A stretch of DNA of 64,000 bases. Origin: Phycisphaerales bacterium (GTDB taxonomy: Bacteria > Planctomycetota > Phycisphaerae > Phycisphaerales > UBA1924). Under the pieces are notes generated by a model. It was not told the origin of the DNA and ran no database searches. It worked only from the letters and a program-made list of their open reading frames with translations. The stretch covers positions 1 to 64,000 of the forward strand of contig JAFIFZ010000072.1 of NCBI GenBank assembly GCA_020831775.1. Reading direction: 5' to 3'. This document shows, in pieces, positions 47,231 to 63,640 of the stretch (the first letter of the stretch is position 1; each line of letters starts with the position of its first letter). The position numbers and the translations under genes were made by a program.

Positions 47231-50200
47231 ATGACAGAGCACGACGATCCCCTGCAACTCCCCCCCACCGGAGAGGCTGCGCACCCGTCCGGCGGCGGGT
47301 CTGAACCGGGAGATACGGCGCCCCGTGATGGGAGCTGGTCGTTCGTCAAGGGAGACCGGATCGGGCCCTACATCCTCCGCGATGCGTTGGGCAGGGGCGG
47401 GTTCGGAGAGGTCTGGCGCGCTGAGCGGCGATCGCCCAACATGACCGTGGCGGTCAAGGTCGTCCGGCGGGACAAGGTCGACGCCAACAGCCTGGCGAGG
47501 TTCTCGGCCGAGTGCCAGGCGCTGGCGATGCTCGACCATCCCTTCATCGCGCGGATCCACGAGGCGGGGGTCACCGAGACCGGCTCGCCCTATCTGGCGA
47601 TGGAGTACATCCACGGCGTGCCGCTGCGTGAGTTCTGCGACCGCGAGATGCTGGGGATCGATGAGCGGCTGGCGATCGTTGCGAAATTGTGCGACGCGGT
47701 GCACCACGCGCACACGCAGGGGATCATCCACCGCGACCTCAAGCCCGACAACATCCTTGTGAGCATCCACGAGGGAGGCGAGGCGACGCCGAAGGTGGTC
47801 GACTTCGGCATCGCCAAGGCGGTGAACAAGAACACGCGCCTGAGCGATGTGACGATCACGCAGGACCTGCACACGACGATCGGCACGCCGCTGTACATGA
47901 GCCCCGAGCAGCTCGAGAGCACGCAGGCGGGCGTGGACACGCGGACTGATATCTTCGCTCTCGGTGTGGTGCTGTACGAGTTGCTCGCGGGCGTCTTGCC
48001 GATGACACCCGGGCACGGCACGCGGGGCGGGCTGGACGAGCTCTTGCGATTCGCTCGCGAGCAGCGCCCCGAGCCGGCCCCCCGCTTCGCCTCCTTGAGC
48101 GAGCAGGAGCGGGCGACGATCGCGCTGCGTCGGGGGCGGATGCGTCCGCAGGCGCTGGAGAAGCTGCTGCGTTCGCGCCTGCGCCACCTGCCGATGAAGG
48201 CGATGCGTCCGGAGCGGAACAAGCGGTTTTCGTCGGCCGCGGCGATGGCGCAGGACATCCGCCACTATCTCGCCGGTGAGAGCTTCGCCGAGGCGGCGGC
48301 GGAGGGAAGGCTCGAACGGTTCGGGCGGAGCGTTCAACGCAACAAACTCGCGTACGGATCGGGCGCGATGATCGTGCTGCTGCTTGCGGGGTGGACCGCG
48401 ACGGCGACGGTGGCGCTGCAGCGGGCGCTGGCGGCGGAAGAAGCCGCGTCGTTCGAGGCGGCCCGGGCGTCCGAGGCGGAGGAGCGGGCCGTGGCGCGGG
48501 CCAACGAACTGGCGTTGGCGGCGGAGTTTCAGCGGTCGCAGCTCGGGGCGATCGAGCCGGCGGTGATGGGCGCGCAGATCCGCGAGGACGTGCTCTCCGA
48601 GGCCGGATCGCGCTGGCGGAGGGCGGGCCTGGACGAGGGCGCGGTCGCTGAGCGGGCGGCGGCGCTCGGCTCGCTGCTCGACGGCGTGAACATGACCAAC
48701 ATCGCGATGCGGACGCTGGAGCGCAACCTGTTCGACCAGACGCTCGCGGCGATCGACGAGCGGTTTGCTTCCCAGCCCTTGCTTCGGGCGCAGTTGTTGC
48801 AGAGCGCGGCCAAGTCGCTGCGTGAGCTCGGGCTGCACGGGAGTGCGATCGTGCCGCAGCGCGAGGCGAGGTCGGTGTTCGTGCAGGCGCTGGGCGAGGA
48901 AGACCTTTCTTCGATCGTCGCGGGTGTGGAGCTTGCGCGGGCGTTGCGTGACGCGGGCGAGCTTGGCGAGGCGGAGGCGTTGATCCGGCGCGTGCTGGAG
49001 AGCGCCGAACGCTCGCTCGGGCCCGACGATCCGGCGACGCTCGCCGCGATCGGCGTGCTGGCGCACTTGCGGTCAGACGCTGGGGATCTGCAGGGCGCGC
49101 TCGTCGGCCATAGGCAGGCGATGGAGGGCTGGCGCCGGGCGGGGAGCGAGCTTGATGCTGCCGCGTTGACCGCCGCGGCGAACTACGGGGCGGCCTTACG
49201 CGCGTTGGGGCGGTCCGACGAGGCCGAACCCTACTACCGGCTTGTGCTGGAGGGGCGTCGGCGCACGCTCGGCGATGATGCTCCGGACACGCTGGCCGCG
49301 ATGAACAACGCGGGGGTGCTGCTGCTTGAGTCGCTGGATCGGCCCGAAGAAGCCGAGCCCCTGTTGCTTGGGGCGCTGCAAGGGCGGCGGCGCGTGCTCG
49401 GCGATGCGCACCCGGGCACGATCGCGACGATGACGAATGTCGGCGTGCTGCGGCTGCGCCAGGGACGGCGCGCCGAGGCGGGGCGGGTGCTGCGGGAGGC
49501 CCACGCGAGTTCTACCCGTGTGCTCGGGCCATCGCATCCCTCGACGCTGAGCGCGGCGGTCAACCTCGCGGGGCTGAAGCGAGACTCGGGCGATCTTGCC
49601 GGTGCAGAATCGCTGCTGCAGGAAGCGGCCGATGGCGCCCGAGTGTCGCTCGGTGAGCGTCACCCAACGACGCTGCGGCTGCTGCACGACCTCGCCGATG
49701 TGCTCGCCCGATCCGGACGGCTGGGCGAGGCGGGACGGTTGTTCGCCGAGGTGTTGGACGGTCGGCGCGAGACCCACGGCCTCGATCATCCGTACACCAG
49801 CGCGACTGCGAAGGCGCTCGGGGATGTGCGCGCAGCGATGGGCGATGCGGCCGGGGCCGAGACGATCTATCGGGAACTGCTGGAAACGCACACGCGCCGG
49901 GGCGAGGCGGAACGCCGGCAGGCGTGGGCGGCGGCATCGGCGCTGGCGAGCGTGCTGCAGCGGCAAGGCCGGCGTGCCGACGCGGCGCCCGTTTTGGAGC
50001 GAGCCGCGGAGCTTGCCGAGGCGGAGTTCGGGCGCACCCATCCCAATACGCTGACTGCGGTGCACACCCTCGGCGCGGCGCTGCTTGAGGAAGGCCGGTT
50101 CGAAGATGCCGCGGCGGTGCTCGGACCGAGGGTGTCCGACGCGCGCGAGGCTTGGACGGAACGGGACGGGTCTGCGCTTGGTCTGTACCTGCTGCGTCTT

Positions 50201-50419
50201 GGGGCGGCGCTGCTGAGCACGGGGAGAGCGAGCGAGGCCGAGCCGGTGCTGCTTGAGGCGCATGCGCTGTTGGCCGGTGCGCTGGGCGAGGGGCACGGGT
50301 ACCCGCGCCAGGCCGCGGCGATGCTGGCGAGCCTGTACGAGACCCTGCACAACGCCGAACCCGGCGCCGGGCATGATGCGTCGGCCGTCCGTTGGAGGGG
50401 GCTGGCGACCGGCGGGTGA
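47231..50419 (+). CDS. Membrane Ser/Thr protein kinase with C-terminal kinesin-light-chain TPR array
   Basis: Protein of 1062 residues. Kinase domain about 45-350: glycine loop LGRGGFGEVWRAE, VAVKV (Lys), HRDLKPDNILV (catalytic loop), DFGIAK and GTPLYMSPEQL; all essential residues are intact. A membrane helix near 375-395 (YGSGAMIVLLLAGWTATATVAL) is followed by a helical linker and about ten TPR units of 42 residues (consensus RxAEAEPLLxxALEGRRRVLGDAHPxT) in the extracytoplasmic part. This is the planctomycete/myxobacterial STK-TPR design. It is followed after 139 nt by an FHA-protease gene, suggesting a kinase and phosphothreonine-reader pair. Confidence 0.93.
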   Translation: MTEHDDPLQLPPTGEAAHPSGGGSEPGDTAPRDGSWSFVKGDRIGPYILRDALGRGGFGEVWRAERRSPNMTVAVKVVRRDKVDANSLARFSAECQALAMLDHPFIARIHEAGVTETGSPYLAMEYIHGVPLREFCDREMLGIDERLAIVAKLCDAVHHAHTQGIIHRDLKPDNILVSIHEGGEATPKVVDFGIAKAVNKNTRLSDVTITQDLHTTIGTPLYMSPEQLESTQAGVDTRTDIFALGVVLYELLAGVLPMTPGHGTRGGLDELLRFAREQRPEPAPRFASLSEQERATIALRRGRMRPQALEKLLRSRLRHLPMKAMRPERNKRFSSAAAMAQDIRHYLAGESFAEAAAEGRLERFGRSVQRNKLAYGSGAMIVLLLAGWTATATVALQRALAAEEAASFEAARASEAEERAVARANELALAAEFQRSQLGAIEPAVMGAQIREDVLSEAGSRWRRAGLDEGAVAERAAALGSLLDGVNMTNIAMRTLERNLFDQTLAAIDERFASQPLLRAQLLQSAAKSLRELGLHGSAIVPQREARSVFVQALGEEDLSSIVAGVELARALRDAGELGEAEALIRRVLESAERSLGPDDPATLAAIGVLAHLRSDAGDLQGALVGHRQAMEGWRRAGSELDAAALTAAANYGAALRALGRSDEAEPYYRLVLEGRRRTLGDDAPDTLAAMNNAGVLLLESLDRPEEAEPLLLGALQGRRRVLGDAHPGTIATMTNVGVLRLRQGRRAEAGRVLREAHASSTRVLGPSHPSTLSAAVNLAGLKRDSGDLAGAESLLQEAADGARVSLGERHPTTLRLLHDLADVLARSGRLGEAGRLFAEVLDGRRETHGLDHPYTSATAKALGDVRAAMGDAAGAETIYRELLETHTRRGEAERRQAWAAASALASVLQRQGRRADAAPVLERAAELAEAEFGRTHPNTLTAVHTLGAALLEEGRFEDAAAVLGPRVSDAREAWTERDGSALGLYLLRLGAALLSTGRASEAEPVLLEAHALLAGALGEGHGYPRQAAAMLASLYETLHNAEPGAGHDASAVRWRGLATGG

Positions 50420-50558
50420 CCGTTTTCTTACGGACCCGGGATGAACCTCCGTGGAACGAATGACCGATAGCCAACCGGTTTCTGTGTGAAGACATGCCCG
50501 AAGGCGACCGGAGCGACGCACGCTCGGGGCCCGGGCCCTGGAACAGGTGAATCCGAAG

Positions 50559-52448
50559 ATGGCCGCGATCCAGATCGAGATCCAGACGGGGTACGCAAGC
50601 CCGTGGTCGGGCAAGTTTGAGCAGGAGCGCGTAACGATCGGGCGCGGGCCCAACGCGGATGTCCGGCTCCACCCGACCAAGGACACCGCCTGCGCACGCG
50701 AGGTCCACGCGACGATTGAGCGATCGCCGGACTCGCCGAGCGGGTGGAGGCTGACAGCCAACCACGCCAGCGGCTTGGGCGTGCTCGGCCCGGGGGGGAG
50801 GACGCTCAAGCGGCTGGGTGCGGGCGAGTCGCACCCGATCGACATCGAGGTGCAGTTCGAGCTCGGCGAGGGCGGGCCGCGGCTGGGTGCGAGCGCCGTG
50901 GGCCAGGAGCTTCCCGCGACCGAGGCGAGGCCGACGGGCGGGCGTGCCCCGCTGCCGGTCGGGCGCGTGTCGGGCGATGTGATCCAGCGGGCGAACCGGG
51001 CACCGAAGCTGATCGCGGCGGTGCTCGTCTTGGTGCTGCTGGTGGGGGGCGGGCTGGGCTACTGGATCATCGTGGTGCGAGGGCAGGGACAGGTGATCGC
51101 CCAGCAGACGACCGAGGCGCTCGAACGGCGAACAGAAGAACTCCGCGCCGCGATCGCGGCCGACACGGAGCTGACCGAAGCGCAGCTCGCCACGCTGCGC
51201 GAGTCGGTGACCGAGCTGCGCGAACAGCCCAGCGACCGTATGGCGCAGGTGCTTGTCGAGGCGTCGCCCTCGGTCTGGCTGACGGGCGTGATCAACCCGG
51301 AGACCGGCGGGTTTACCGCGGGCGGCACCGCTTGGACGGTTTCTGAGAACCAGCTCGCCACCAACGCGCATGTCGCCGAAGCGCTCGAGACGCTGACCAA
51401 GATGATCGAGGGCGCGATGCCGGTCGCGCTGCGCGAAGGGCGGCGTGACCAGATGATCACGCTTTCGTCCGAGATGCTCCTCCACCCGGGCTACAAGCGA
51501 TGGTCCGAGATCCTTTCGCGCCAGCTGCAGGGCGACGCTGCGGGGCGGCTGCTGCAGTTCAGATTTATCCAACCGTGCGATGTCGCGATCCTCACACCGG
51601 CCGAGCCGGGCAAGGATCTCGGCGCGCCGCTGAAGATCGCATCGGGCGTCGATTCCAGGTCGCTTGTGGGCGACGCGGTCGGGTATGTCGGGTTTCCCAG
51701 CGAGAACATCGCGGGGCTGCCTTCGCAGCAGCGTGTCTCGGGGCGGATCTCCAACCAGACCGACTTCATCTTCCAGCCCGCGGATCTCCGCGACAACATG
51801 CTGCTGCACTACAGCGCCGTCACGACCGGCGGGGCCAGCGGCAGCCCGCTCTTTAACGAAGACGGCGAGGTGGTCGGCCTCGTCTCGGCGGGCAGCGTTA
51901 TCGGCCTGGGCGGGTACCGCATCCCCGTCGGCATCAACTACGCCCAGCGGGTCGACTTTCTGACCGAACTGCTCGAAGGCGTCGCCGAAGCACGCCAGAA
52001 CGAACGCCACGAGCGGTGGTCCGCGTCGCTGCGGTCGGCGCTCATCCCGCCCTCGCAGTTGCTCGAACGCATCACCCGCGACCAGACCCGGGGCGCAGAG
52101 GGCGCGACGTGGACCGACCGCGAGTTCGAGCTGAACCGGAGCGGCATCGAGCACGGGCACAGCGTCTCCATCCGCATCGAGCCGGGATTCCGGTACGCCT
52201 TTATCGCGATCTCTGAGGATTGGACCGACATCCGGAGCACGCTGCTCGCCGGAACCCTGATCCTCGCTCAGGAAACGAGCCCGAACTACTACAGCGTCAT
52301 CACCGCCAACCCGCCGATCTTCGGCTACGACGCGACGCTCACCGTTTACATGCCGCAAAAACTCTCAGAACAGCCTTCAAAGATCCGCTTCCGGATCTTG
52401 CAGGCGCCCGTTGAACCGCCCCCGGATCAGGCGCCCGGCGGAGCGTAG
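50559..52448 (+). CDS. FHA-like domain, membrane helix and trypsin-like serine protease
   Basis: Protein of 629 residues. Residues about 10-105 are an FHA-like domain (SGKFEQERVTIGRGPNADVRLHP, REVHATIERSP), the phosphothreonine-binding fold with GR and H conserved. A membrane helix follows (LIAAVLVLVLLVGGGLGYW, about 150-173), then a trypsin-like protease with His271 (TNAHVAEA), Asp341 (CDVAIL) and Ser427 (TGGASGSPLFN). About 190 C-terminal residues are of unknown fold. A cytoplasmic FHA reader would thus be tied to an extracytoplasmic protease. ATG at 50559 is preferred (AGGTG 9 nt upstream) to GTG 50547. It follows the TPR kinase gene. Confidence 0.85.
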   Translation: MAAIQIEIQTGYASPWSGKFEQERVTIGRGPNADVRLHPTKDTACAREVHATIERSPDSPSGWRLTANHASGLGVLGPGGRTLKRLGAGESHPIDIEVQFELGEGGPRLGASAVGQELPATEARPTGGRAPLPVGRVSGDVIQRANRAPKLIAAVLVLVLLVGGGLGYWIIVVRGQGQVIAQQTTEALERRTEELRAAIAADTELTEAQLATLRESVTELREQPSDRMAQVLVEASPSVWLTGVINPETGGFTAGGTAWTVSENQLATNAHVAEALETLTKMIEGAMPVALREGRRDQMITLSSEMLLHPGYKRWSEILSRQLQGDAAGRLLQFRFIQPCDVAILTPAEPGKDLGAPLKIASGVDSRSLVGDAVGYVGFPSENIAGLPSQQRVSGRISNQTDFIFQPADLRDNMLLHYSAVTTGGASGSPLFNEDGEVVGLVSAGSVIGLGGYRIPVGINYAQRVDFLTELLEGVAEARQNERHERWSASLRSALIPPSQLLERITRDQTRGAEGATWTDREFELNRSGIEHGHSVSIRIEPGFRYAFIAISEDWTDIRSTLLAGTLILAQETSPNYYSVITANPPIFGYDATLTVYMPQKLSEQPSKIRFRILQAPVEPPPDQAPGGA

Positions 52449-52525
52449 CCATCCGGTGCATGTAACACCCTTGCGGGGCGTGTGATGATCGGGAGTCTTC
52501 GTTCGCTACGGTCTTCGGTGCACGC

Positions 52526-54214
52526 TCAGAGCAGCGTCGCGGCCGCCGCGGCGATCGCTGCGTAGATCAGCATCGGAACGATGGTGAGGCGGAGGATCGA
52601 GGCGACGCCGCCGTGGAGGGCGTCGGGGGCCTCGCCGGCGGTCGGTCTGTCGCGCAGGCCGATGACCGCGGCGACCGCCACGATGTTGTGGATGCAGACC
52701 ATGTTGCCCAGCGATCCGCCCACGGTCTGGAGCGCGAGCACGCTGGTGATCTCCAAGTCGAGCGAATCGGCGATCGCCGCCTGGACGGGCGCGAAGGTGA
52801 GGTTCGAGACCGTGTTGGAGCCAGAGAAGAACGAGCCGAGCGCGCCGAGCAGCGGCGCGAGATAGATCCACGAGTCGCCGGCGGCGTCGGCCATGGCACG
52901 CCCGATCAGCATCACGGGGGAGGACTCCCCACCGAGCATCATCAGCTTGACCAGCACGAGCGCGCCGACGAGGGCGATCGCGGGGCGGGCGAGGCGCTTG
53001 AGTGTGTCCGTCCACGCCGAGACGGCGGCTTCGCGCCGGATCCGCAGCCCCGGGATCGCCAGCAGCGAGACCAGGACGAACGGGATCAGGAAAGGCACGA
53101 ACAGCAGCGGCATCCGCCACGCGACATCGGTGCCGAGAATGTCGCGGAACCCGACGACCAGCCCGGGCGTGATCCACGCGTTGCCAGCGGTACCGAGGTC
53201 GAGATCCGCCGCCGGGCCGTCTGCCGTGAGCAGGGCGCGGAGGCCGAACTGCTCGATCCTCGTTAGTGCGAGAAGCAGGACGACGGCGATGATGGGGCTG
53301 GCGGCTCGGATCGTTCCGAAGGGATGCCCGGTGTCTTCGGAATCGGGGAGCGGAAGCGATTCTGCTTCCGGGCTGGCCGACAAGCCGACACGCTTGTAGG
53401 CGAGCAGTGCGCCGACGACCGTGCCCGAAATGCCGCCGATGATCGAGGGGAACTCGGACGAGTGCATGGCCATGAACGCGTACGGCAGTACGGTGGCCAG
53501 CGTCATGAAGAGAATGAACCCGAGCGAGGCCCGGATCGTTCGCCAGGGGAGCACCACTCGCAGGGCGAGGACAGGGATGACCAGCGCCGCAACGGCGTTG
53601 ATGAACGCGGCCTTTGTCCCGACGGTGAGCAGTTCTTCCGAACTGAGCCCGAGTTCACCGAGGCCGAACCAGATCGGCGTGCCGACCGCCCCGAACGAGA
53701 CGGGCACGCTGTTCATGATGAGGCACATCGCGGCGACGCGGACCGCGGGGAAGCCGAGCCCCACGAGAATGGGTGCGGCGAGTGCGGCGGGCGCCCCGAA
53801 CCCGCAGAGGCCTTCGATCAGGAACGAGAAACCCCAGCCGACAAGCATGAGCTGCGCGACGGGGTGCGGGCTGAGCCCTCGGATGCGCCCTGTGAGCACG
53901 CGCATCGCGCCGGAGGCCTCCATGGTCTTGAACAGGAGCACCGCGCCGAACACGATCCCGATCGGGGTGAGCGCGGAGAGGGCGCCGTCGATGGCCGCGG
54001 CATGGATCCAGCGCCCGGGCTGAGCAAGTCCCGGCGGCGCGCCATCGGGGGTCGATCCGGCCCGAAACCACAGAAGTTGGAGGAGGTACGCGAAGGCGGC
54101 GACCGCCGGGAGCGCGATATGGGCCGGCAGCGGGAGCCAGCGGCGCGGTCGCGTCGCGGTCATCAGGACGATGAGCAGAGCGAGCGGCAGGATGGCCAGC
54201 ACCAGCGACATCAT
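52526..54214 (-). CDS. L-lactate permease family transporter
   Basis: Protein of 562 residues with about 12-14 membrane segments, of the LctP/GlcA family of proton-linked lactate or glycolate permeases. Typical stretches: FKTMEASGAM, GFSFLIEGLCGFGAPAALAAPIL, NSVPVSFGAVGTPIW, SFFSGSNTVSNLTFAPVQ and SLGNMVCIHNIVAVAAVIGL. AGGGG lies before the ATG at 54214, and a second ATG follows at once. It is a single gene on the minus strand between the protease and sigma genes, with 77 nt to the convergent protease gene. Confidence 0.93.
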   Translation of the reverse strand: MMSLVLAILPLALLIVLMTATRPRRWLPLPAHIALPAVAAFAYLLQLLWFRAGSTPDGAPPGLAQPGRWIHAAAIDGALSALTPIGIVFGAVLLFKTMEASGAMRVLTGRIRGLSPHPVAQLMLVGWGFSFLIEGLCGFGAPAALAAPILVGLGFPAVRVAAMCLIMNSVPVSFGAVGTPIWFGLGELGLSSEELLTVGTKAAFINAVAALVIPVLALRVVLPWRTIRASLGFILFMTLATVLPYAFMAMHSSEFPSIIGGISGTVVGALLAYKRVGLSASPEAESLPLPDSEDTGHPFGTIRAASPIIAVVLLLALTRIEQFGLRALLTADGPAADLDLGTAGNAWITPGLVVGFRDILGTDVAWRMPLLFVPFLIPFVLVSLLAIPGLRIRREAAVSAWTDTLKRLARPAIALVGALVLVKLMMLGGESSPVMLIGRAMADAAGDSWIYLAPLLGALGSFFSGSNTVSNLTFAPVQAAIADSLDLEITSVLALQTVGGSLGNMVCIHNIVAVAAVIGLRDRPTAGEAPDALHGGVASILRLTIVPMLIYAAIAAAAATLL

Positions 54215-54453
54215 GACCCCTGAACGCGGGTGCCGATCGTGAGCCTGGAATCCGGGTCAAGCGTAGCTGAGCAAGGGAGCGTGCCGGTTTGTGGGCGAGC
54301 GTCGGATCCGCACCGAACTGACGATGAACGACCTGGCGGGCGGTGCTGGCGTTGGTCCAGAGCGACCAAGAATAACGGTGACAGCCACGAGCGGACTCGA
54401 ATCGGGCGGTGCAAGCGTCTCTGCGGGCAGGCGGCCGCGGCGCGGCGTGCGTG

Positions 54454-54999
54454 TCACTCTTCGTCGGCCAGCCAGCGGCGGAGGTGCTCTGAGGCGTCGG
54501 TCCAGCGGCGGGTGACGGTCCGCTCGCTCAGCCGCAGGATCTCGGCGATGTCCGGCGTTGACAGGCCGCCGAAGTAGCGAAGCTCGACGACCTCCGCCAG
54601 TGCCGCGTCTTGCTCTCTGAGGCGATCGACAAGCCGCTGGACTGTTTCGGCGTCGAGGGCTGCATCGGCGCTTTGGGGTGCCGTGGGTTCTGTAGCGATC
54701 CGGAGTTCGGGGTGACGCTTTCGCTGCCTTGCGCGGTCGATCAGGATTCGACGCATGCAGCCTGCGTAGGTCCGGAAGAGGTGCAGGCGGTCCTGGAATT
54801 CGAGCTCGGAGAGCCTTGCGTAGGCGTCGTTGACCAGCTCTCCAGAACGCGGCAGATCGCCCGTTTCGCGCTCCCTGGCCAGCCGGGCGTTGGCGATCGC
54901 CTGCAGTTCGGTGTAGACGCGGTTAAAGAGCCGGTCTTCTGCCCCCGGCCGCCCCTCGTTCGCCTCGTTGATCAGTCTGGTGATCGAGCCCTCGGACAC
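54454..54999 (-). CDS. ECF-type sigma factor of the planctomycete kinase-associated group
   Basis: Sigma factor of 181 residues. Region 2 shows LVNDAYARLSELEFQDRLHLFRTYAGCMRRILIDRARQRKR, the LV-x-AY...R-RxILxDxAR signature of the Sig-70 X6 (TIGR02999-like) group that is plentiful in planctomycetes. Region 4 shows AALAEVVELRYFGGLSTPDIAEILRLSERTVTRRW. The GTG at 54999 with AGAGG 10 nt upstream is preferred; an upstream GTG (55050) adds 17 residues lacking homology. It is divergent from the DUF4384-like kinase gene, so it may control that kinase-protease operon. Confidence 0.9.
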   Translation of the reverse strand: MSEGSITRLINEANEGRPGAEDRLFNRVYTELQAIANARLARERETGDLPRSGELVNDAYARLSELEFQDRLHLFRTYAGCMRRILIDRARQRKRHPELRIATEPTAPQSADAALDAETVQRLVDRLREQDAALAEVVELRYFGGLSTPDIAEILRLSERTVTRRWTDASEHLRRWLADEE

Positions 55000-55388
55000 A
55001 GTTGAAGGCCTCTTGTGGAAAAAAATCTGTGAAATCGTGTCCGCTGGCACGCCCGGCTGACGCTTGTGAGTGTAGCGAACGGGCGTCCGGAACGCGGACC
55101 CGGGATCGGTGCATGTACGGATCTGTCAAGTGACGGCGACATCGCACAATTCGCCGTGGCGGCCGCTCGAAGGGCCTGACTGTCCGATCCCGGGCCGCGT
55201 CTTCGGGCGGCCCCCTTGCGTCGGCGTGCTCGATCTGTAGGCTGGAGGTGGGTCTGATCGCGAACGAACCCAACCAAACGAACGGGAGTTGGCTTGTCAC
55301 GGATTGAAGCACAGATCGTCCCTTGCGTTCCCGACCGGCGAGATGCACCTCGTTCTGCATCACAAGCCAGACGGCCCGGGCGGCGCCG
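55000..55388 (+). other. Divergent intergenic region between sigma factor and kinase genes
   Basis: 389 nt with no convincing gene. A locally AT-rich stretch lies around 55010-55040. TTGTCA (55294-55299) could be a -35 element of the kinase gene, but no matching -10 was found at standard spacing. As the control region of two divergent signalling genes it may hold promoters read by the adjacent ECF sigma factor. Confidence 0.5.
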
Positions 55389-57224
55389 ATGAACACCGAC
55401 GATCGCCGGGGAGTCAGCACCGATCCGCGCCCGTGGAAGGCTGAGGATGTGCTCAGAGTCGCCGTCGAGCGGCCGGACCGGGACGGAAGCCCCTTGTCGA
55501 CGCGCGAACGGATCGAGCGGTGCTTCGATGCGACCGTCGGCGCCTCGTCCGAGGCCCCCACCGCCGATAGGTTGGGCGGGATCGGTTTGGAGATTAGCTC
55601 GATCGAGCCCTGGTCCGGATCGCCGGCGAAGTGGCCGACCTCCGACGCTGAGCTGCCGTCACAGCCTCCGGCCCAGATCCCCAATCACGAACTGGTCTCG
55701 TGCCTCGGCGCCGGCGGGTTCGGGCAGGTCTGGCTCGCCAGGCAGTTGCTGACCGGGCACTTCCGCGCATGCAAGCTGGTGCCCGAAGAGAAGTCCGTCG
55801 AGCTTGAGGGGCTGCGCCACCTCAAGCAACGCGTGCCTTCTCACCACGGCCTGCTGCCGATCGAGGATGTCGGGGCGGTCGAGGGCTGGCTGTATTGCCT
55901 CATGCCGCTGGCCGACAGCGCGACGAGCACGGTCGTGCGGGATGCTTCGAGCTACGACCCGATGACCCTGGCGGTCTACGCCGGGCGGGGCAGGCCCCCC
56001 AGCACCGAAACCGCCTCGATCGTGGCGTCGCTGGCCGATGCGACGGCCCACCTGCATGCCCACGGCGTGACCCACGGGGACATCAAGCCGGCGAACATCC
56101 TGCGGCTGGACGGCCGGTGGGTGCTGGCCGACTACGGGCTGGCGCGGGACCTCGCAAAGCCGAGTGGGCAAGGCCGGACCCCGGGGTATCTGCCCGAGAG
56201 CGAGGACCCCGGAAGCCCCGCCGCCGATCGCTTCGCGCTGGGCGTGGTGCTGATGGGGCTGCTGACGGTCCAAACGCCCGATCGGCTGGAAGAGGTCAGG
56301 TCGACGGCGCCCGAGCGGTTCGGGCTCGACCCAATCGGCCAGCGGCTCTTCGAGGTGATGCATCGAGCGACCTCGCCGCGGCCGGAGGACCGGTTCGGAT
56401 CGGCCGGGGAGTTGGCCAGTGCGGTGCGGCGTGCGGCCGAGGAGGCCGAAGTCAGGCCGGCGCCATGGAAGAGATGGCTCCCGGCCGGTGTGCTGCTCGC
56501 CGCGGGTTTGTTGATCGCGGTGTTCGCCGGGCTTGTGCTGCTGCAGTCGGCAGGCCCAAAGGAGGGTCCGGCATCAACCGCCGCGGTCGATGCGGAGACA
56601 GCGCCGGCGACGGACGCGGAGGCCCTCTCACCCGCTTCGGTCAGGATCGAATCGTTTGAGATCCGCCATTACCGCTACGACCCGACTACGGACACCTTGG
56701 TCTCTGTCGGCCCGCTGGGGGCGGACAACCCCGCCGCCCGCGATGATGACGATGTGACCGTCCACGCCCGCTTGGACGGGCCGGCCTACTTCTACCTCGT
56801 CTCACTCGACACCGACGGCGTGGTCCGCCCGCGCCTGCCCGATTCGCCGACCGAAGCGCCCGCCCCCGTCGACCGGATCGACTACCCGAGCTTTCCGACG
56901 GGTTCGGAGGAAGACCTCGTGTTCAACCTGAGCCGGGGACCGGGAACGCAGGGATTCATGCTGCTGGTGAGCGCCGAGCCGTTGCCGAGCTGGTCGGACT
57001 GGGTCGCCGCCCGGGGCGAGCCGACCTGGACGACCGAGTCACTGCCGCCCAGCGGCGTGGTGTTCTTCGACGGGTCGGAGGTGCGCTACGCCAGCGCGAC
57101 ACGAGAGCCGATGCCGCGGAGGGGCCGTCTGGTGCAAGATCCGATCGACTGGGCGATGACCCATGGCGAGTTTTCTGCTGTTCGGTTTATCGCGTTCACG
57201 GTGCTTGAAGGCGGGGATGGATGA
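55389..57224 (+). CDS. Membrane protein kinase (non-RD, HGD type) with extracytoplasmic DUF4384-like domain
   Basis: Protein of 611 residues. A 95-residue leader precedes a kinase domain (about 100-350): GAGGFGQVWLAR, Lys129 in ACKLV, THGDIKPANIL (Arg of HRD replaced by Gly; Asp231 kept), DYGLAR for DFG and TPGYLPES as a weak APE. The Lys, Asp and DYG Asp are present, so activity is plausible. A membrane helix follows (LPAGVLLAAGLLIAVFAGLVLL). The C-terminal part, with GPAYFYLVSLDTDGVVRPRLP, resembles DUF4384, a domain common beside caspase-like proteins. The stop overlaps the start of the CHAT gene (ATGA). Confidence 0.85.
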   Translation: MNTDDRRGVSTDPRPWKAEDVLRVAVERPDRDGSPLSTRERIERCFDATVGASSEAPTADRLGGIGLEISSIEPWSGSPAKWPTSDAELPSQPPAQIPNHELVSCLGAGGFGQVWLARQLLTGHFRACKLVPEEKSVELEGLRHLKQRVPSHHGLLPIEDVGAVEGWLYCLMPLADSATSTVVRDASSYDPMTLAVYAGRGRPPSTETASIVASLADATAHLHAHGVTHGDIKPANILRLDGRWVLADYGLARDLAKPSGQGRTPGYLPESEDPGSPAADRFALGVVLMGLLTVQTPDRLEEVRSTAPERFGLDPIGQRLFEVMHRATSPRPEDRFGSAGELASAVRRAAEEAEVRPAPWKRWLPAGVLLAAGLLIAVFAGLVLLQSAGPKEGPASTAAVDAETAPATDAEALSPASVRIESFEIRHYRYDPTTDTLVSVGPLGADNPAARDDDDVTVHARLDGPAYFYLVSLDTDGVVRPRLPDSPTEAPAPVDRIDYPSFPTGSEEDLVFNLSRGPGTQGFMLLVSAEPLPSWSDWVAARGEPTWTTESLPPSGVVFFDGSEVRYASATREPMPRRGRLVQDPIDWAMTHGEFSAVRFIAFTVLEGGDG

Positions 57225-60200
57225 TGGTTGCGAAGCGGACAGGGCTGGCGGTGTCGGCTGCGATTTTGGTCTTCGTGGCCTGCAGCGCGGCCGCTGCTTC
57301 TTCGGCCGAGGCTCGGGATGAGGCATCCCGACAGAATCTGCCCGAGTGGAGCCAGGACCCCGAGAGCCTGCCGCCGGAGTTGCGTCCGCTGGACATCACG
57401 CGGCCGATGCTGCCGGAAGGGGCTGCGGCGGAGGTGGCCGAGTTGGAGGCCCGGATCGCGAAGATCGAGAGTTCATGGCTCACGCTTGAGACTCGGGCCG
57501 AGCAGGACGCGGCGCTCGACGAGGCGATCGGGCTCGCCGAGCGTGTGCTGGCGATACATTTCGAGTACCAGGGCAACACGGAGGCGGGCGTCCGCTGGCG
57601 CGACGCGGCGGGCGAGCCGAGCGAGTGGTACGAAGTCGTCAACGCACGCCGAAAGTTCGCAGACCTTCGCCTGCTGCGAGCGCTCGGAGGCGAAGCCCGC
57701 GCTGCGCTCGCCACGCTCGACGGGAAAAACGCCGATCTCGAGCGACTCTACATGCAGGGAAAGTACGCCGAGGCGCAAGCTGTTGCGGAGCGACAGCTCT
57801 CCGTCCGCCGCCGCGTCTTTGGAGACGAGCATCCGTTTCTATTCGATTCCATCAGCAACATCGGTGTCCTGCTTCGGATCCAAGGCCGACTCGAAGAGGC
57901 CGAGGCGAACTACCGCGAGGTGTTGGAGGGCCGCCGGCGCGTGCTGGGCGACGAGCACCCGGATACGCTCATCTCAATCAGCAACATGGGCGCAATGCTT
58001 CACCACCAGAGCAAGCCCGCCGAGGCCGAGCCGTACTATCGCGAGGCGCTGGTGGGCAGCCGCCGCGTGCTGGGCGACGACCACCCGCACACGCTGACCT
58101 CAATGAACAACATGGGCGGCTTGCTTTCCTTGCAGGGCCGTATGGCCGAGGCCGAGCCACACCTGCACAAGGTGTTGGAGGGCCGCCGCCGCGTGCTTGG
58201 CGGCGAGCACCCGAGCACGCTCCACTCAATGAACAGCATGGGTGTCCTGCTCGGGAGACGGGGCAAGCTGGCCGAGGCCGAGCCGTACCTCCGCGAGGCG
58301 CTGGAGGTCCGGCGTCGCGTGCTGGGCGGTGATCACCCGGACACGCTCATCTCGAGCGGCCACATGGGCGTTCTTCTCCTGGAACTGGGCCGGCTCGCGG
58401 AGGCGGAGCCTTACACACGCGAGGCGATGGAAGGCCATCGCCGCGTGTTGGGCGACGACCACCTTGAAACGGTAACCTCTTTCGCGAGGGTGGGAATACT
58501 GTTCAAGCGCCAAGGTAAGCTGGCCGAGGCCGAGCCGTATCTCCGCGAGGCATTGGAAGTCCGGCGTCGCGTGCTGGGCGACGAGCACCCGGAGACGCTG
58601 AGCTCCAACATCAACATAGGCCTCTTGTTCCTGGCCCAGGGCAAGCTGTCGGAGGCCGAGGCGTACTGCCGCGAGGCGCTGGATGGCCGCCGCAGCGTGT
58701 TGGGCTCTGAGCACCCGAGCACGCTTCAAACCATCAACGACATGGGCTTTCTGCTCCAGGAGCAGGGCAAGCTGTCCGAGGCCGATGCGTACTACCGCGA
58801 GGCGTTGGAGGGCGTCCGCCTTGTGCTGGGGAACGACCACCCGAGCACTTTGAGGAGCATCCACAACATGGGCGCTCTGCTCCGGGCCCATGGCCGCCTG
58901 TCCGAGGCCGAGCCGTACTACAGCGAAGCGTTGGAAACCGCGGAGCGTTTGCGCCTGGATGTGATCGGCGATTCGCAGTCACGGGCGCAGATGGCCGGCG
59001 CGGTCAACTTACCCGGCATCGCGGCGGCGTACGCGCGAATGCTGGTTGAGCTCGGCAGGCCCGCCGAGGCGTTGGTGGTGCTCGAGCGTGGGCGTGGACG
59101 CGCGGGGCTCGATCTCTTTGCCGGCGGGCGTCGCGCGGCGGAGGAGGTGCTGCGGGCCGCCTCGGGTGAAGCGGAACTGACTCTCTACGACGCGGAGTTG
59201 GCTGCCGAGGAAGAGGCCCGCCTGGCGCTGATCGAGGCCGAGAACCGCCTGAGCGCTGCGCCCGAGGAGGAGAAGGCCGCTTGGACCGAGCGAGTCATGG
59301 CGGCGCGGGTCACACTTGGTGAAAAGACGGCGTCGGTCTTCGCCGAGCTGCGGGGTCTGGTGCCCACGCTCGACCCGCTCTTGATCGAACAGATTCTGGC
59401 GGCGTTGGCGCCCGGCGAGGCACTGCTGACCTTCGCCTTCACGCACGACGGCGCGATCGCGCTGGTGGCTCGTGACGGGCGGGTTCGCGGCGTGTCGCTG
59501 GCGAAGGACAGCGACGAGGCCGCGGCGCTGCTCGCGGCGATTGCTGATGTGCGCGGGGCGATCGCGTCGAGGCCGTCCGGCGGCGAGGCGATTGATGCGG
59601 GTGTGGTAGCCGCGGCGCGAGCAATTGCGGCCCCGGAGGAACTCCGCGCTCTGCTCGATGGCGCGGGCTCGGTCATCGCCGTCGCCGACGGGCCGCTGGC
59701 GGGCCTGCCCATGGAGCTGCTGTTCGAGGATCTGCAGATCGCCTACGCCCCCAGCGCGACGATCGCCCTGCGGCCGAGGCTGGAGGGCCAGACCGGCACA
59801 ACAGTCGCGTCTTCGGCTCCGCAGGGCGCGGGCGTCGTCCTGGGCGATCCGGTCTTCGCAGGCTTCGAACGCGAGGAGCCGGACTATCCCGAGACGGGCA
59901 TCCTGCTGGCGATGGTGCAGGAAGGGAGCAACGCCGCGACCGCGGGGCTGACGCGCGGCGATGTGTTGCTCAGCTACGGCGATCACGAACTGAGCTCGGC
60001 CGAAGCCCTCGGACCGGCGATCGGCGCGACGGCCGAGGCGATGGCGACGCGTGGCTCAGCGGAAGGCGACCGCCCCGTGCCCGCACGGGTTTGGCGAGAT
60101 GGCAAAGAGATCGAAGTCTCGCTGGCGTTGGGCCGCATGGGCGTGGAGATGGACCAGCGTCCGCCCGCCGACGGCCTGCGCTCGATGGCGACCTTCGACC

Positions 60201-61018
60201 GTTCGGCAGACATCCTCGCCGCCAACGCCACGGCGCTCGAACAGGTCCGCTTCTACGGCGGCGGGCTGGGCCCGCTGCCTGCGACTCGCCTGGAAGCCGC
60301 CGCCGTCGCCGCGATGCTCGGCGGGGACGCCACGCTGCTGCTGGGCGAGGACGCGTCGGGACCTCGCCTGCGTAAAGCGATCGAGTCTTCCCCGCCGCGT
60401 GTGCTGCACCTGGCGACGCACGGCCTGCTGGGGTCGTCAGACCGCCCGCTGCTGGCGAGCCTGGCATTCACCACGCCCGACGAGCCGACGCTTGAAGACA
60501 ACGGCTTCGTGACGCTGGGAGACATCCTCGCGACATGGGGCGGGCAGCTGCGCGACACCGAGCTGGTGGTGCTGTCGGCCTGCGACACGGCGTCGGCTGT
60601 GCGTCAGGGCGACACGATGATGGCTCTGCCGCTCGGCCTGCTGATCGCGGGCGCCGACACCGTCATCGCGAGCCTGTGGAAGGTCGACGACCGGGCGACG
60701 GCCTTCCTCATGGCCCGCTTCTACGCCAACTGGCTCGGCAAGGCCCAAGCCGAACGCGAGGTCGACGGCGTGCAATACGAGGCGGGACAGCCCATGCCCA
60801 AGCTCGCCGCACTGCGCGAAGCGCAGGCCTGGCTGCGTAACCTGACCGCCGATGACCGCGACCGATTGCTCGATGAGTCGGGTGATCTTGGCGAGAATAT
60901 CGCCGCCTCACGCGGCGTCTCGCCGGCGCGGGCCCGGATCGTCCAGCCCGACCAGCAACGCCCCTACGAGCATCCATACTACTGGGCCGCGTTCGTCCTC
61001 TACGGCAGCCCGGACTGA
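57221..61018 (+). CDS. Exported TPR-CHAT (caspase-like) protein with PDZ domain inserted in the protease
   Basis: Protein of 1265 residues. An N-terminal Sec signal (VSAAILVFVACSAAAASS; Cys within it might allow lipid attachment) precedes about 10 kinesin-light-chain TPR units of 42 residues (about 170-590). A helical linker follows, then a CHAT caspase-like domain from about 730 with catalytic His1067 (LHLATHG) and Cys1121 (LSACDTA), ending in YYWAAFVLYG. A PDZ-like domain (about 887-976; VQEGSNAATAGLTRGDVLLS) interrupts CHAT between its first and second parts. CHAT proteases act in regulated cell signalling or death. It is coupled by a 4-nt overlap to the kinase gene. Confidence 0.9.
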   Translation: MMVAKRTGLAVSAAILVFVACSAAAASSAEARDEASRQNLPEWSQDPESLPPELRPLDITRPMLPEGAAAEVAELEARIAKIESSWLTLETRAEQDAALDEAIGLAERVLAIHFEYQGNTEAGVRWRDAAGEPSEWYEVVNARRKFADLRLLRALGGEARAALATLDGKNADLERLYMQGKYAEAQAVAERQLSVRRRVFGDEHPFLFDSISNIGVLLRIQGRLEEAEANYREVLEGRRRVLGDEHPDTLISISNMGAMLHHQSKPAEAEPYYREALVGSRRVLGDDHPHTLTSMNNMGGLLSLQGRMAEAEPHLHKVLEGRRRVLGGEHPSTLHSMNSMGVLLGRRGKLAEAEPYLREALEVRRRVLGGDHPDTLISSGHMGVLLLELGRLAEAEPYTREAMEGHRRVLGDDHLETVTSFARVGILFKRQGKLAEAEPYLREALEVRRRVLGDEHPETLSSNINIGLLFLAQGKLSEAEAYCREALDGRRSVLGSEHPSTLQTINDMGFLLQEQGKLSEADAYYREALEGVRLVLGNDHPSTLRSIHNMGALLRAHGRLSEAEPYYSEALETAERLRLDVIGDSQSRAQMAGAVNLPGIAAAYARMLVELGRPAEALVVLERGRGRAGLDLFAGGRRAAEEVLRAASGEAELTLYDAELAAEEEARLALIEAENRLSAAPEEEKAAWTERVMAARVTLGEKTASVFAELRGLVPTLDPLLIEQILAALAPGEALLTFAFTHDGAIALVARDGRVRGVSLAKDSDEAAALLAAIADVRGAIASRPSGGEAIDAGVVAAARAIAAPEELRALLDGAGSVIAVADGPLAGLPMELLFEDLQIAYAPSATIALRPRLEGQTGTTVASSAPQGAGVVLGDPVFAGFEREEPDYPETGILLAMVQEGSNAATAGLTRGDVLLSYGDHELSSAEALGPAIGATAEAMATRGSAEGDRPVPARVWRDGKEIEVSLALGRMGVEMDQRPPADGLRSMATFDRSADILAANATALEQVRFYGGGLGPLPATRLEAAAVAAMLGGDATLLLGEDASGPRLRKAIESSPPRVLHLATHGLLGSSDRPLLASLAFTTPDEPTLEDNGFVTLGDILATWGGQLRDTELVVLSACDTASAVRQGDTMMALPLGLLIAGADTVIASLWKVDDRATAFLMARFYANWLGKAQAEREVDGVQYEAGQPMPKLAALREAQAWLRNLTADDRDRLLDESGDLGENIAASRGVSPARARIVQPDQQRPYEHPYYWAAFVLYGSPD
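58265..58644 (+). repeat. Tandem TPR-coding repeats with 252-nt (two-unit) near-duplication
   Basis: Within the CHAT gene the TPR units repeat every 126 nt. The stretch beginning AAGCTGGCCGAGGCC at 58265 recurs at 58517, exactly 252 nt later, with about nine in ten bases the same over at least 70 nt. This suggests duplication of a two-unit block. Neighbouring units share the same 126-nt register but are less alike. Confidence 0.8.
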
Positions 61019-61028
61019 CACACACAGT

Positions 61029-62687
61029 TCAGCGACCAGACCCGAGTTCGACCGAGAACACCGCCACATCATCGGCGAACGCGCCGCCGCCGGCGAACGA
61101 GGTCAGCGCTTCGAGGATCGCTCGCACATCGCCTTCAGCATCGGTCGCGTTTGCGAACGCTTGCAACGCACGCTCTACGCCGAACTGTTCGCCTTCGGCG
61201 TCGGGTTGCTCGACCACGCCGTCGGAGAAGAGCACGAGCCTGGCCCGGTTGTACGCTCCGTCGGGCAGGTCGATGGTCGAGTCGGTGTAGGCCGCGTCCG
61301 GGTCGATGCCGAGAGGGAGGCCGCCTCCGGTCTTGGGGAGGCTTCGCGGCGGACCGTCGCCAGCGATGACCGCCAAGCCGTGCCCGGCGTCGCAGCACCT
61401 CGCCTCGCCAGCGCCGGGATCGATCACCGCAAGGAACAGGGTCACGAACGCCGCGTCGAGCGTGTGCGAACAGGCGAAGCGGTTGGCGGCTTGCATGATG
61501 CGGGCGGGGTTGTCGGTGGTGGATGCGACCGCGAGGATGTGCGAGAGCACGCCGGCCATGGTGATCGCCGCGCCGATCCCCTTGCCAGAAACATCGCCGA
61601 GCAAAACCAACGCCTTGCCGCCTTCAAGATCGGCGACGCCGAAGAGGTCGCCCCCGACCCCGCGGCCGGGCCTCAGCACCGCCCGGTAAGCCAGCCCCGC
61701 GACCTCGCCCTTTTCGGGCGGCGAGAGGCGACGCAGGGCGAGCGTCGCGGCTTCAATGTCGCGCTGTGTTCTTGCCCGCTCGACCTCCAACTCCTGACGC
61801 CGAAGGTTCGCGAGGGCAAGTGCGGTCAGCTTCGCGACGCTGTCGCAGTACGCGACCGCCGCCGAGCCCTCGTCGCTGCCCCCGACCGAGCTGTCGAGGT
61901 AGGCGTACGCGTCGGGCACGCCGCCGACAACGATCGGCACGCAGAGCGCCGAGACCACCGACGACTCTGCGAGCGAAACGGCGCCGGCGAAATCGGCCCG
62001 ATCGCGAAGCTGTACCGGCTCGCCCGCTTCGGCGGCTTTCAGCAGCGTCCGCGAGACCGGGGCTTCCCGCGCGCCGTCGGCGGAACGCGAGGCGAGCAAC
62101 TCGACCCGTTCGAACAGGTCCACCGGCCGCACGATCCTCGCCCGCTGGAACGAGCCGCTCCCGAGCAGCGCACGGCACGCCAGCGCGAAGACCGCCGCCT
62201 CATCGTCGGCGCTGTGGATCTTCTCGGCCGTCTCCATGAGCAAATGCAGGCGTTGTGCGTCCGGGCTGTCCGCGGCCGGCGCCCGCTCGGCCACGCTGCC
62301 CGGTCGTTCCTCGGACCGTGTTTGAGAGAAGGTGGAGGCTTCGCCTTCGGCGCCGGTCTTTGAGACGCGGAAGGTCCACGGGTTGATCGAGAGTCGGTCG
62401 CCGACGCGGAGGCGGGCGGGCTCGTCTGGCGTCAGCTTCATCCCGTTGAGCACCACGCCGTGGCGCGAGCCGAGGTCAACGACCGACGGCGAGGCATCCC
62501 GCCAGTCGATCCGGGCGTGGCGTCTGGAGACCGCTGGATCGTCGAGCTTCAGCCCGCACACCGCCGACCGACCGATGATCAGGCTCTCGCCGCGACCCAA
62601 GCGCGAAGCGTTGATCGAGGGTCCGCGGACGGGGGTGAGGATCAGTTCGTCGGCGTCGCTCCTGCGATGAGCGGGCTGGTCATCCAT
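61029..62687 (-). CDS. FHA-domain, GAF-like and PP2C (SpoIIE-type) Ser/Thr phosphatase
   Basis: Protein of 552 residues, all cytoplasmic. FHA domain about 25-110 (IIGRSAVCGLKLDDPAVSRRHARIDW, LGSRHGVVLNG, with the Arg/Ser/His of phosphothreonine readers). A GAF-like middle lies about 130-310 (SVVSALCVPIVVGGVPDAYAYLDSS). The C-terminal SpoIIE/PPM phosphatase shows PGRGVGGDLFGV, LGDVSGKGIGAAITM and FADDVAVFSVE as metal sites. Likely job: dephosphorylation linked to the neighbouring kinase. ATG 62687 has no Shine-Dalgarno sequence but TATCGT 7 nt before it. The gene converges on the CHAT gene with a 10-nt gap. Confidence 0.9.
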   Translation of the reverse strand: MDDQPAHRRSDADELILTPVRGPSINASRLGRGESLIIGRSAVCGLKLDDPAVSRRHARIDWRDASPSVVDLGSRHGVVLNGMKLTPDEPARLRVGDRLSINPWTFRVSKTGAEGEASTFSQTRSEERPGSVAERAPAADSPDAQRLHLLMETAEKIHSADDEAAVFALACRALLGSGSFQRARIVRPVDLFERVELLASRSADGAREAPVSRTLLKAAEAGEPVQLRDRADFAGAVSLAESSVVSALCVPIVVGGVPDAYAYLDSSVGGSDEGSAAVAYCDSVAKLTALALANLRRQELEVERARTQRDIEAATLALRRLSPPEKGEVAGLAYRAVLRPGRGVGGDLFGVADLEGGKALVLLGDVSGKGIGAAITMAGVLSHILAVASTTDNPARIMQAANRFACSHTLDAAFVTLFLAVIDPGAGEARCCDAGHGLAVIAGDGPPRSLPKTGGGLPLGIDPDAAYTDSTIDLPDGAYNRARLVLFSDGVVEQPDAEGEQFGVERALQAFANATDAEGDVRAILEALTSFAGGGAFADDVAVFSVELGSGR

Positions 62688-62694
62688 GGCCGAC

Positions 62695-62700
62695 ACGATA
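62695..62700 (-). promoter_or_regulatory. Putative -10 box (TATCGT) for leaderless FHA-PP2C gene
   Basis: On the minus strand TATCGT ends 7 nt before the ATG at 62687, which has no Shine-Dalgarno sequence. It matches the TANNNT-start spacing of other genes here. Confidence 0.4.
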
Positions 62701-62880
62701 CCTGAAACCCGCCGGGCCACGCCAAACCCGGGCTACGGACGCATGAAGCCGCCCGAATCGAGGACCTTCCCGGTATCCATCGCTCGAACCGCTTCGGATC
62801 GCGGCCGCCGAGACCCTCCGGCGAGACTCGCTAGGTCGATCGGCCCGTCGGGAGGAACCAGGGACGAACCCTCAGCCAAC

Positions 62881-63118
62881 CCGCCCGAGCTCCAGCGGCT
62901 CTTTGAAGAGGCCCGCCGCCTCCCCGAGGCGGACCGTGCCGCGTTCCTCGACGAGCGGTGCGCCGACGACCCGGACCTGCGGGCGAAGCTCGAAGAGGCG
63001 AACCCCCGATCGCTACAAGGTCCGCAGCGTGATCAGCGAGGGCGGCTTCGGCGTCGTCTACGAGCACCCGGTGCCGCGCCGGGTCTCCCTCGGCCTTCAG
63101 AACATCGCTCGTGACGGC
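62881..63118 (+). pseudogene. Remnant of a Ser/Thr protein kinase N-terminus
   Basis: In one frame, 62881-63000 reads PPELQRLFEEARRLPEADRAAFLDERCADDPDLRAKLEEA, with the typical N-terminal stretch of planctomycete kinases (LFxxAxxLPxxxRAAFLDxxCxxDPxLR). From about 63008 the next frame reads DRYKVRSVISEGGFGVVYEH, the glycine loop of a kinase domain, then VSLGLQNI in place of VALKxI. The frame then breaks and the rest of the kinase is missing. The catalytic lysine and loop are absent, so it is non-functional. Confidence 0.8.
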
Positions 63119-63220
63119 ACTTGCGGGTCGAGCCCCGATCTCTCATCCGATTCGGCCAGGCACATCAAAGAAACGATCGCCTCTTAGCATGAACTCTTCG
63201 GAACGGTCCGTTTCCCAGCC

Positions 63221-63640
63221 ATGCCCCGTGAGACCGGCACATGCCGAACGAGCACATCCTCGGCGAGGCCGCCCGAGCGTTCGTGCCGCACCCGCTTCCC
63301 CCAGCGGATCCTCCGCTCCTGGTCGCGGGTGAGGCACGCCGCGACCGTCGCCGCCCTCGGACTTCTCCGTATGGCCGGAGCGATGGTCCTCGATCCAAGC
63401 TGGATCCTTTACGGCTCCGTCCGCAAGGAAGCCGTGCTCTCGTCGCAGATCGAGAACGCGCAGGCGACGCTCCGCGATGTCGCCACATTCGAATCGACCA
63501 GCAACACCGGCCGCCCGGCCGATGTCGAGGAGATCTGCAACTGCGTGGATGCTCTCAACCACGCCCGTGCCCCCATCGCCGATCCCCACGGCCCGCCGCT
63601 GAGCACGCGGCTCTTGCGCGATGTGCATCGCTCAGACCGG
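63221..63640 (+). pseudogene. Frameshifted and truncated Fic-family protein remnant
   Basis: Parts of the N-terminal half of a Fic/DOC protein appear in two frames: ETGTCRTST (frame of 63221), then LGEAARAFVPHPLPPADPPL (frame of 63241), then back to VAALGLLRMAGAMVLDP and the diagnostic VRKEAVLSSQIENAQATL, VEEICNCVDALNHA and LSTRLLRDVH. At least two frameshifts are needed, and the HPFxxGNG active-site motif that should follow is missing. It is a dead gene; Fic proteins normally transfer AMP to targets. Confidence 0.8.

Follow-up and report, generated by a model that had tools for sequence, protein, structure and literature searches.

Introduction

In type III-E CRISPR systems a TPR-CHAT protease cuts an inhibitor of a sigma factor, and in the DegS/RseA/RpoE pathway of E. 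coli an envelope PDZ protease controls an extracytoplasmic function (ECF) sigma factor across the membrane (both in PMC10028731). A further ECF sigma factor, DdvS, is kept inactive by DdvA (PMC4374960). In the ECF43 pairs EcfP-PknT and EcfK-PknS, the genes for the ECF sigma factor and for a transmembrane Hanks-type kinase are neighbours (PMC13147305), and a threonine in region 2.2 of ECF43 sigma factors is phosphorylated (PMC13147305; PMC8999054). Here we describe a locus in which elements of these systems occur side by side, at 54.4-62.7 kb of a 64,000-nucleotide stretch from a Phycisphaerales bacterium (contig JAFIFZ010000072.1, hereafter the window): an ECF sigma factor gene, a divergent gene for a Ser/Thr kinase with a DUF4384-like tail, and, overlapping the kinase gene, a gene for a TPR-CHAT protein predicted to be exported.

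Planctomycete sigma factors of groups ECF59, ECF61, ECF62 and ECF217 are predicted to be controlled by kinases, and those of ECF54 have CHAT neighbours, the two being noted separately (PMC8999054). EACC2-caspase systems contain a caspase domain together with ECF sigma factor and TPR genes (PMC8195603), and among orthocaspases DUF4384 is fused to a caspase-like domain in 23 of 473 cyanobacterial proteins (PMC8283722). Neither CHAT nor DUF4384 appears in the accessible part of a paper on planctomycete kinases (PMC11032199).

The kinase-CHAT pair is well supported as a recurring unit. The explanation favoured for it, tentatively, is a membrane-spanning unit in which a receptor kinase controls the ECF sigma factor and is itself gated by the exported CHAT protein. 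The kinase would hold its catalytic domain in the cytoplasm and, beyond a single membrane segment, its DUF4384-like domain outside; the TPR-CHAT-PDZ protein would be made by coupled translation from the kinase message and exported to the DUF4384 side, where it would sense an envelope signal via its TPR or PDZ parts and bind or cleave the DUF4384 domain, altering kinase activity. The kinase, directly or via another protein, would act on the adjacent ECF sigma factor, which may drive its own expression and that of the operon as well. The action of CHAT on DUF4384, the direction of signalling, kinase control of the sigma factor and autoregulation are what we infer from this arrangement. The features concerned are as follows.

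54454..55050, minus strand: ECF sigma factor (Sigma70_ECF / Sig-70_X6), divergent from the kinase gene, with a likely start near 54999
55389..57224, plus strand: Ser/Thr kinase with HGD and DYG motifs, one transmembrane segment and a C-terminal DUF4384-like domain
56631..57221, plus strand: DUF4384-like domain, predicted extracytoplasmic, which is the segment found repeatedly next to exported CHAT genes
57221..61018, plus strand: TPR-CHAT protein, predicted exported, with a PDZ domain within the CHAT region and His1067/Cys1121
61029..62720, minus strand: FHA-SpoIIE (PP2C) phosphatase, convergent with the CHAT gene and by linkage probably outside the module

A first-pass annotation of this DNA had proposed a signalling system made of these four genes. 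All four are present where it placed them, the sigma factor gene is divergent from the kinase gene, and the 4-nt overlap that it reported between the kinase and CHAT genes is real. The kinase open reading frame (ORF) opens at TTG 55323, its probable ATG being at 55389, and the ATG form of the FHA-PP2C gene starts at 62687. ORFs in other genomes were called mechanically, which makes their starts and overlaps approximate, and distances given as within 500 bp include overlaps.

Recurrence of the kinase-CHAT pair

A profile of nine DUF4384 sequences was run on 397 genomes of another class, of which 51 matched; 60 neighbourhoods were taken from 67 listed matches (five loci had already been examined and two were left out) and were scored with profiles built here. 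A kinase head was found in 53 of the 60 loci (loci and genomes are cited by L and G numbers), two of them, L217 and L239, being split ORFs. A CHAT gene on the same strand lay within 2 kb in 31 of these 53 loci, from 25 genomes and seven families, and within 500 bp in 27; where at least 4 kb of downstream sequence was present, the count was 31 of 42. A sigma factor gene stood on the same strand within 500 bp upstream in 19 of the 53, with another two divergent as in the window (L240, L244), and 12 loci had both sigma factor and CHAT. Excluded from these counts were a "divergent sigma" at L234, an ORF that lies opposite to the kinase and overlaps it, and a "CHAT" at L263, a fragment of 67 aa found on the opposite strand where the contig ends. 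From the matches per genome (18-57 for Sigma70_r2 in four genomes; about two for CHAT among the matches listed), we estimate that chance alone would place a CHAT gene adjacent in about 1% of cases or fewer, and a sigma factor gene in 1-2%. Complete sigma-kinase-CHAT sets were confirmed by Pfam at L222, L240 and L262, with DUF4384 at 17.4, 26.8 and 29.7 bits; L240 has the divergent arrangement of the window and a CHAT protein with PDZ.

Closer to the window, a near set of 61 genomes was searched, its own among them. Matches to the CHAT/PDZ region at E <= 1e-15 came from just two of these, the window's own and G011, and matches to the DUF4384 tail at E <= 1e-3 came from the same two. In G011 the CHAT gene begins 2 nt past the kinase stop, and the tail and the CHAT region are 62% and 74% identical to those of the window. 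The 4-nt overlap recurs at L126 (G178), and at L138 (G539) sigma factor, kinase and CHAT form a single operon. Against 392 genomes of the phylum a DUF4384 profile matched 11, three of them sources of that profile. Among the other eight, G302 has the kinase then CHAT, G518 the sigma factor and kinase only, G295 an exported-looking TPR start interrupted by the contig end, and G333 (L182, 9089-18999) a row of genes for CHAT, a caspase (Peptidase_C14, 81.8 bits), the sigma factor and kinase-DUF4384, all in one direction; the remaining ones had no CHAT neighbour or too little sequence. Conserved linkage in relatives, the absence of which was named in the first-pass annotation as refuting the system, is seen for kinase-DUF4384 with CHAT and, less often, for the ECF sigma factor, and not for the FHA-PP2C gene.

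DUF4384 ORFs without a kinase match were found at seven of the separate-class loci, four of them beside CHAT (L235, L275, L260, L250). At L235 (3966-9139, G804) a 395-aa ORF comprising a TIR domain (78.4 bits), one hydrophobic segment and DUF4384 (27.2 bits) ends 23 bp before an exported-looking TPR-CHAT gene, and it appears to be a receptor-like TIR protein replacing the kinase on the same membrane-DUF4384 stem. At L275 (3772-8825, G609) DUF4384 (82.6 bits) and a caspase domain (45.4 bits) share one ORF directly beside the CHAT gene. The DUF4384 ORF of L260 had no Pfam match, and L250 is interrupted by a contig end.

The kinase and its predicted outer tail

The window kinase is recognised by Pfam (Pkinase, 60.6 bits). 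Its catalytic motif HxDxKxxN reads HGDIKPAN, bearing out the HGD kinase of the first-pass annotation, and its DxG reads DYG. The combination of HGD and DYG (window 56073-56140; L085; L126) is common to three members of the family of this kinase; the majority of the remaining listed kinases read HRD, HQD or HLD at the first motif and DFG or DLG at the second. By hydropathy, a single hydrophobic segment separates the kinase domain from the DUF4384-like tail in the window, and a hydrophobic segment beyond residue 250 was present in 46 of 50 single kinase ORFs longer than 450 aa from the separate-class loci. From this segment, together with the N-terminal segment of the CHAT protein, the DUF4384 end of the kinase is predicted to lie outside the membrane on the same side as the CHAT protein, a point that was absent from the first-pass annotation.

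The TPR-CHAT-PDZ protein and its predicted export

Pfam identifies TPR_12 (389.5 bits) in the window CHAT protein, as well as the CHAT domain itself (PF12770, 164.6 bits, above the family cut-off of 24). His1067 and Cys1121, the residues named from the first reading of the sequence, are at those positions and constitute the His/Cys dyad of CHAT. The PDZ insert, also named there, falls below the Pfam threshold (PDZ_6, 22 bits for a cut-off of 27) and is backed by HtrA2 sequence matches and by structure matches to the PDZ domains of RseP, DegP and HtrA; by inspection, PDZ is present in 7 of 15 aligned CHAT sequences. Export is predicted, as had been proposed, from the hydropathy of an N-terminal hydrophobic segment in the window protein. 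Among the 34 adjacent CHAT ORFs of the separate class, 30 are of at least 700 aa, and 25 of these 30 have an N-terminal hydrophobic segment, compared with 1 of 51 kinases and 3 of 22 sigma factors.

An AlphaFold model of the CHAT-PDZ region (mean predicted local distance difference test score, pLDDT, 87.4) was aligned to separase with Z 25.0 (root-mean-square deviation, rmsd, 3.4 over 315 residues), to Csx29 with Z 24.5 (rmsd 3.3, 300 residues) and to DdvA with a best Z of 20.4 (range 20.0-20.4; rmsd 3.3, 275 residues). At L125 (6793-18999, G126) several TPR genes stand in line, their products exported in appearance and related to the N-terminus of the CHAT protein, with CHAT in one stretch.

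Evidence against the proposed unit

A number of results weigh against the proposed membrane-spanning unit. The sources of the nine-sequence DUF4384 profile stood mostly beside CHAT or TPR genes and could favour that subgroup, the 60 loci surveyed being outside the profile. At 22 of the 53 kinase-DUF4384 loci there is no same-strand CHAT gene within 2 kb, and in 11 of the 22 the absence is real, since the sequence there extends at least 4 kb downstream. Searches that began from CHAT covered 163 members of the family and 392 of the phylum, along with 17 non-G011 loci from the near search; the phylum search gave 32 neighbourhoods from 41 listed matches besides the window's own, and the family search nine matches besides the window and G011, from eight genomes, each genome being sampled. 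In the family a CHAT match was found in 10 of 163 genomes, three with the kinase pair and one with a DUF4384 ORF only. Kinase-DUF4384 lay directly upstream in 3 of 57 flanked CHAT loci, the window and G011 excluded (L126, L131, L138); L133 has a DUF4384-like ORF without a kinase upstream of CHAT, detected with the profiles built here and missed by Pfam. No adjacent DUF4384 ORF was recognised at the other 53, one of which, L159, has CHAT following a kinase with a different tail, the remaining 52 having neither. Among CHAT loci the pairing is rare.

The identity of the kinase tail is a second difficulty. It scores 18.7 bits against DUF4384 (PF14326), under the Pfam cut-off of 27, and the DUF4384 domain first assigned to the kinase is here called DUF4384-like. 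Scores in relatives range from 17.4 to 29.7 bits, some exceeding the cut-off (27.3; 29.7) and others falling short, and DUF4384 was not detected by Pfam at E 0.01 in the G011 kinase tail. The AlphaFold model of the window tail (pLDDT 83.5) matched no PDB structure at E 0.001.

The third difficulty lies with the sigma factor, which is recognised by PF07638 (103.2 bits) and TIGR02999 (128.9 bits, cut-off 126.15). With no sigma factor gene within 500 bp at 32 of the 53 kinase loci, the sigma step is on weaker ground than the kinase-CHAT pair. The best match to the window sigma factor among the 60 other near genomes, at 48% identity, is in G011; it starts at the equivalent of the later GTG near 54999 and sits on a contig separate from kinase-CHAT, the contig ends preventing a test of linkage. 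Its neighbour on that contig, in divergent orientation, is a TPR gene with an exported-looking product that is cut by the contig end; the first 294 aligned residues of this product are 66% identical to the window CHAT protein. In place of the phospho-threonine of ECF43 (in a QTTA-like motif), the window sigma factor has RSGE.

The same motif reads QRDD in the G011 sigma factor. In 26 other sigma factors from related genomes (a single best match per genome, taken from 26 of the 45 genomes in which the sigma factor had a match), the threonine is present in 25 and an acidic residue occurs in the motif in two. Among 26 module-linked sigma factors (L245 counted twice, L263 once), 24 have acidic residues at the motif and two have QxTA, and seven have Ser at the key position. 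An ECF43-type switch at the region 2.2 threonine was accordingly rejected, the residue being missing in the window, in G011 and in 24 of the 26 linked sigma factors, and phosphorylation of the sigma factor, as first envisaged, is unsupported at this threonine, other sites being possible; a Ser adjoins its position in the window. Control of the sigma factor may pass through another residue or another protein, and the sigma step is the weakest part of the model.

Anti-sigma factors were considered separately. Candidates with a DUF4384-like outer domain beside CHAT, suggested by eye in G242 (L130) and G476 (L129), were unsupported by profile comparison (1.7% and 0.6%, respectively) and were rejected; a candidate in G314 (L143), 4 kb from its CHAT gene, reached 63% in the same comparison, which is only suggestive. 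A sigma factor with a second small gene stands near CHAT at L130 (9290-10734), L134 (7453-9025) and L143 (14486-15965), and these are possible anti-sigma versions, unproven.

Alternative roles for the CHAT protein

A broader form of the favoured explanation, possible though rather doubtful, is that such receptors are widespread in planctomycetes and that their heads can be exchanged. A separase-like CHAT protein, exported and equipped with a PDZ/TPR sensor, would cleave or lock an outer DUF4384 domain, and the inner head would usually be a kinase acting on an ECF sigma factor and, at least once, a TIR domain, making the system an envelope-side counterpart of the Csx29/CASP-sigma switch of CRISPR.

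The CHAT protein could instead be the output, with the kinase sensing through DUF4384, the sigma factor raising expression and the exported CHAT protein attacking envelope or foreign proteins in conflict or cell death. We regard this as unlikely. The 4-nt kinase-CHAT translational overlap suggests a joint complex and not an induced output, and the pairing of CHAT with DUF4384 ORFs having other heads also fits a physical partnership. Other features tell in the opposite direction: the caspase gene in the G333 row, the TIR head of L235 and the caspase-DUF4384 protein beside CHAT at L275 would all suit an output role, as would predicted export, the keeping of both catalytic residues, the multiplied and at times tandem CHAT copies of some genomes and the variation of the block within the genus. 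PADLOC, run on six window proteins, returned generic kinase models and a TPR model only, plus weak matches (BovA, 20.8 bits, to the CHAT protein; protease models to the 50.5 kb gene), with no specific defence system; nor did it name one for four relatives, ten proteins having been scanned altogether. The TIR-headed relative may leave room for a conflict role.

It is quite improbable that the CHAT protein serves as a non-proteolytic scaffold or ligand-binding sensor, controlling the kinase by binding alone. The His/Cys dyad, which a pure scaffold would not need, is retained in 30 of 30 adjacent CHAT ORFs of the separate class and in 15 of 15 aligned members, and both residues are at least 90% conserved, and not invariant, across a wider set of 49 CHAT sequences. 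What speaks for a scaffold is the likeness of the fold to the anti-sigma factor DdvA noted above, and the window TPRs, for which the nearest PDB entries are kinesin light chains; kinesin light chains bind peptides.

The FHA-PP2C phosphatase and variability of the block

The domains first given for the fourth gene hold, with FHA at 63.1 bits and SpoIIE at 136.8 bits in Pfam. That all four genes form one system, as the 10 bp between the CHAT and PP2C 3' ends and the position of all four within the segment at 54.3-63.2 kb replaced in G002 would suggest, is very improbable and was rejected on missing linkage in relatives, given that PP2C homologues (E <= 1e-30) occur in 42 of the 61 near genomes versus 2 of 61 for the CHAT region, that the G011 homologue (37% identical) is unlinked to the module, being on yet another, third contig with a TPR kinase gene as its divergent neighbour, and that by eye a broken kinase start is divergent from PP2C in the window as well. 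Three genes of the proposed four-gene system are retained, and the FHA-PP2C gene, going by linkage, is probably outside the module.

The broken kinase start, at 62870-63140, is by eye a frameshifted Ser/Thr kinase N-terminus; the ORF has no Pfam match. PP2C was found near a divergent kinase in 4 of 29 short loci of relatives, with a sigma factor gene between them in two.

The composition of the four-gene block resembles that of its surroundings. In place of 54286-63169, G002, of the same genus, has 2.6 kb with different genes, including an Sbt_1 bicarbonate transporter gene and a P-II-like gene, and G001 likewise differs from the window to the right of the permease. Comparison with G002 shows that the whole block, PP2C included, was gained or lost, the direction not being decided by it. 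The bicarbonate transporter and P-II-like genes stand to the right of lactate permease at L187 (11795-13074, G002) and L186 (2577-3856, G001), their Pfam annotation being for L187 only. The window sequence at 63169-63631 is 83% identical to part of a G002 Fic-domain ORF (L187, 14124-14912; Fic_N 81.0 and Fic 75.3 bits) and consists of short broken frames in the window. Also absent in G002 is 47076-52526 of the window; at 47090-52448 there is a TPR kinase gene, then a trypsin-like gene with an FHA-like N-terminus (by eye; no Pfam FHA).

Comparison with known systems

In summary, links between CHAT and ECF sigma factors (type III-E, DdvA and, as a prediction, ECF54) and between planctomycete kinases and ECF sigma factors are known separately, and the combined unit was not found in the open-licence literature, in which no paper describing kinase-DUF4384 with an exported CHAT protein was recognised. 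A receptor kinase gated by an exported CHAT protein would join CHAT-ECF sigma circuits with kinase-sigma signalling. For DUF4384, also fused to caspase-like proteins, it would suggest a function open to test, that of partnering exported caspase-like proteins on the outer side, and the control of part of the large planctomycete kinase and sigma factor repertoire would be more readily explained.

The DegS/RseA/RpoE pathway is an analogy only, with an unrelated protease family and an anti-sigma factor where the window has a kinase. In orthocaspases DUF4384 and the caspase-like domain are in one protein, whereas here DUF4384 and CHAT are encoded by neighbouring genes. EACC2-caspase systems differ in having other core domains, and no DUF4384 kinase is mentioned in the accessible part of their description (PMC8195603). 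For ECF59, ECF61, ECF62, ECF217 and ECF54, kinase-DUF4384 and exported CHAT as one unit are not mentioned in the corresponding part of PMC8999054. As in the ECF43 pairs, the window sigma factor adjoins a divergent Hanks-type kinase (55389); unlike them, it lacks the region 2.2 threonine (RSGE in the window; missing in 24 of 26 linked sigma factors) and has a CHAT partner.

In the DdvS/DdvA system of Myxococcus xanthus (PDB 8ROT, 8RW5) the anti-sigma factor is a transmembrane protein that itself contains a CHAT-like fold, whereas here CHAT is a separate protein and the membrane partner is the kinase-DUF4384 protein; in the window CHAT protein no Pfam anti-sigma domain was found at E 0.01, its N-terminal hydrophobic segment being followed by TPR. 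Type III-E CASP/Craspase (Csx29, Csx30, CASP-sigma) shares with this locus a TPR-CHAT protease fold (Z about 24) that is tied genetically to an ECF sigma factor. No Csx30 or Cas7-11 was seen among the Pfam-named genes at 54.4-62.7 kb, no search aimed at these having been made. The comparison with Csx29 drawn in the first-pass annotation holds for the fold and not for the predicted compartment: the CHAT protein of the window is predicted to be exported and not cytoplasmic, and its partner is a membrane kinase.

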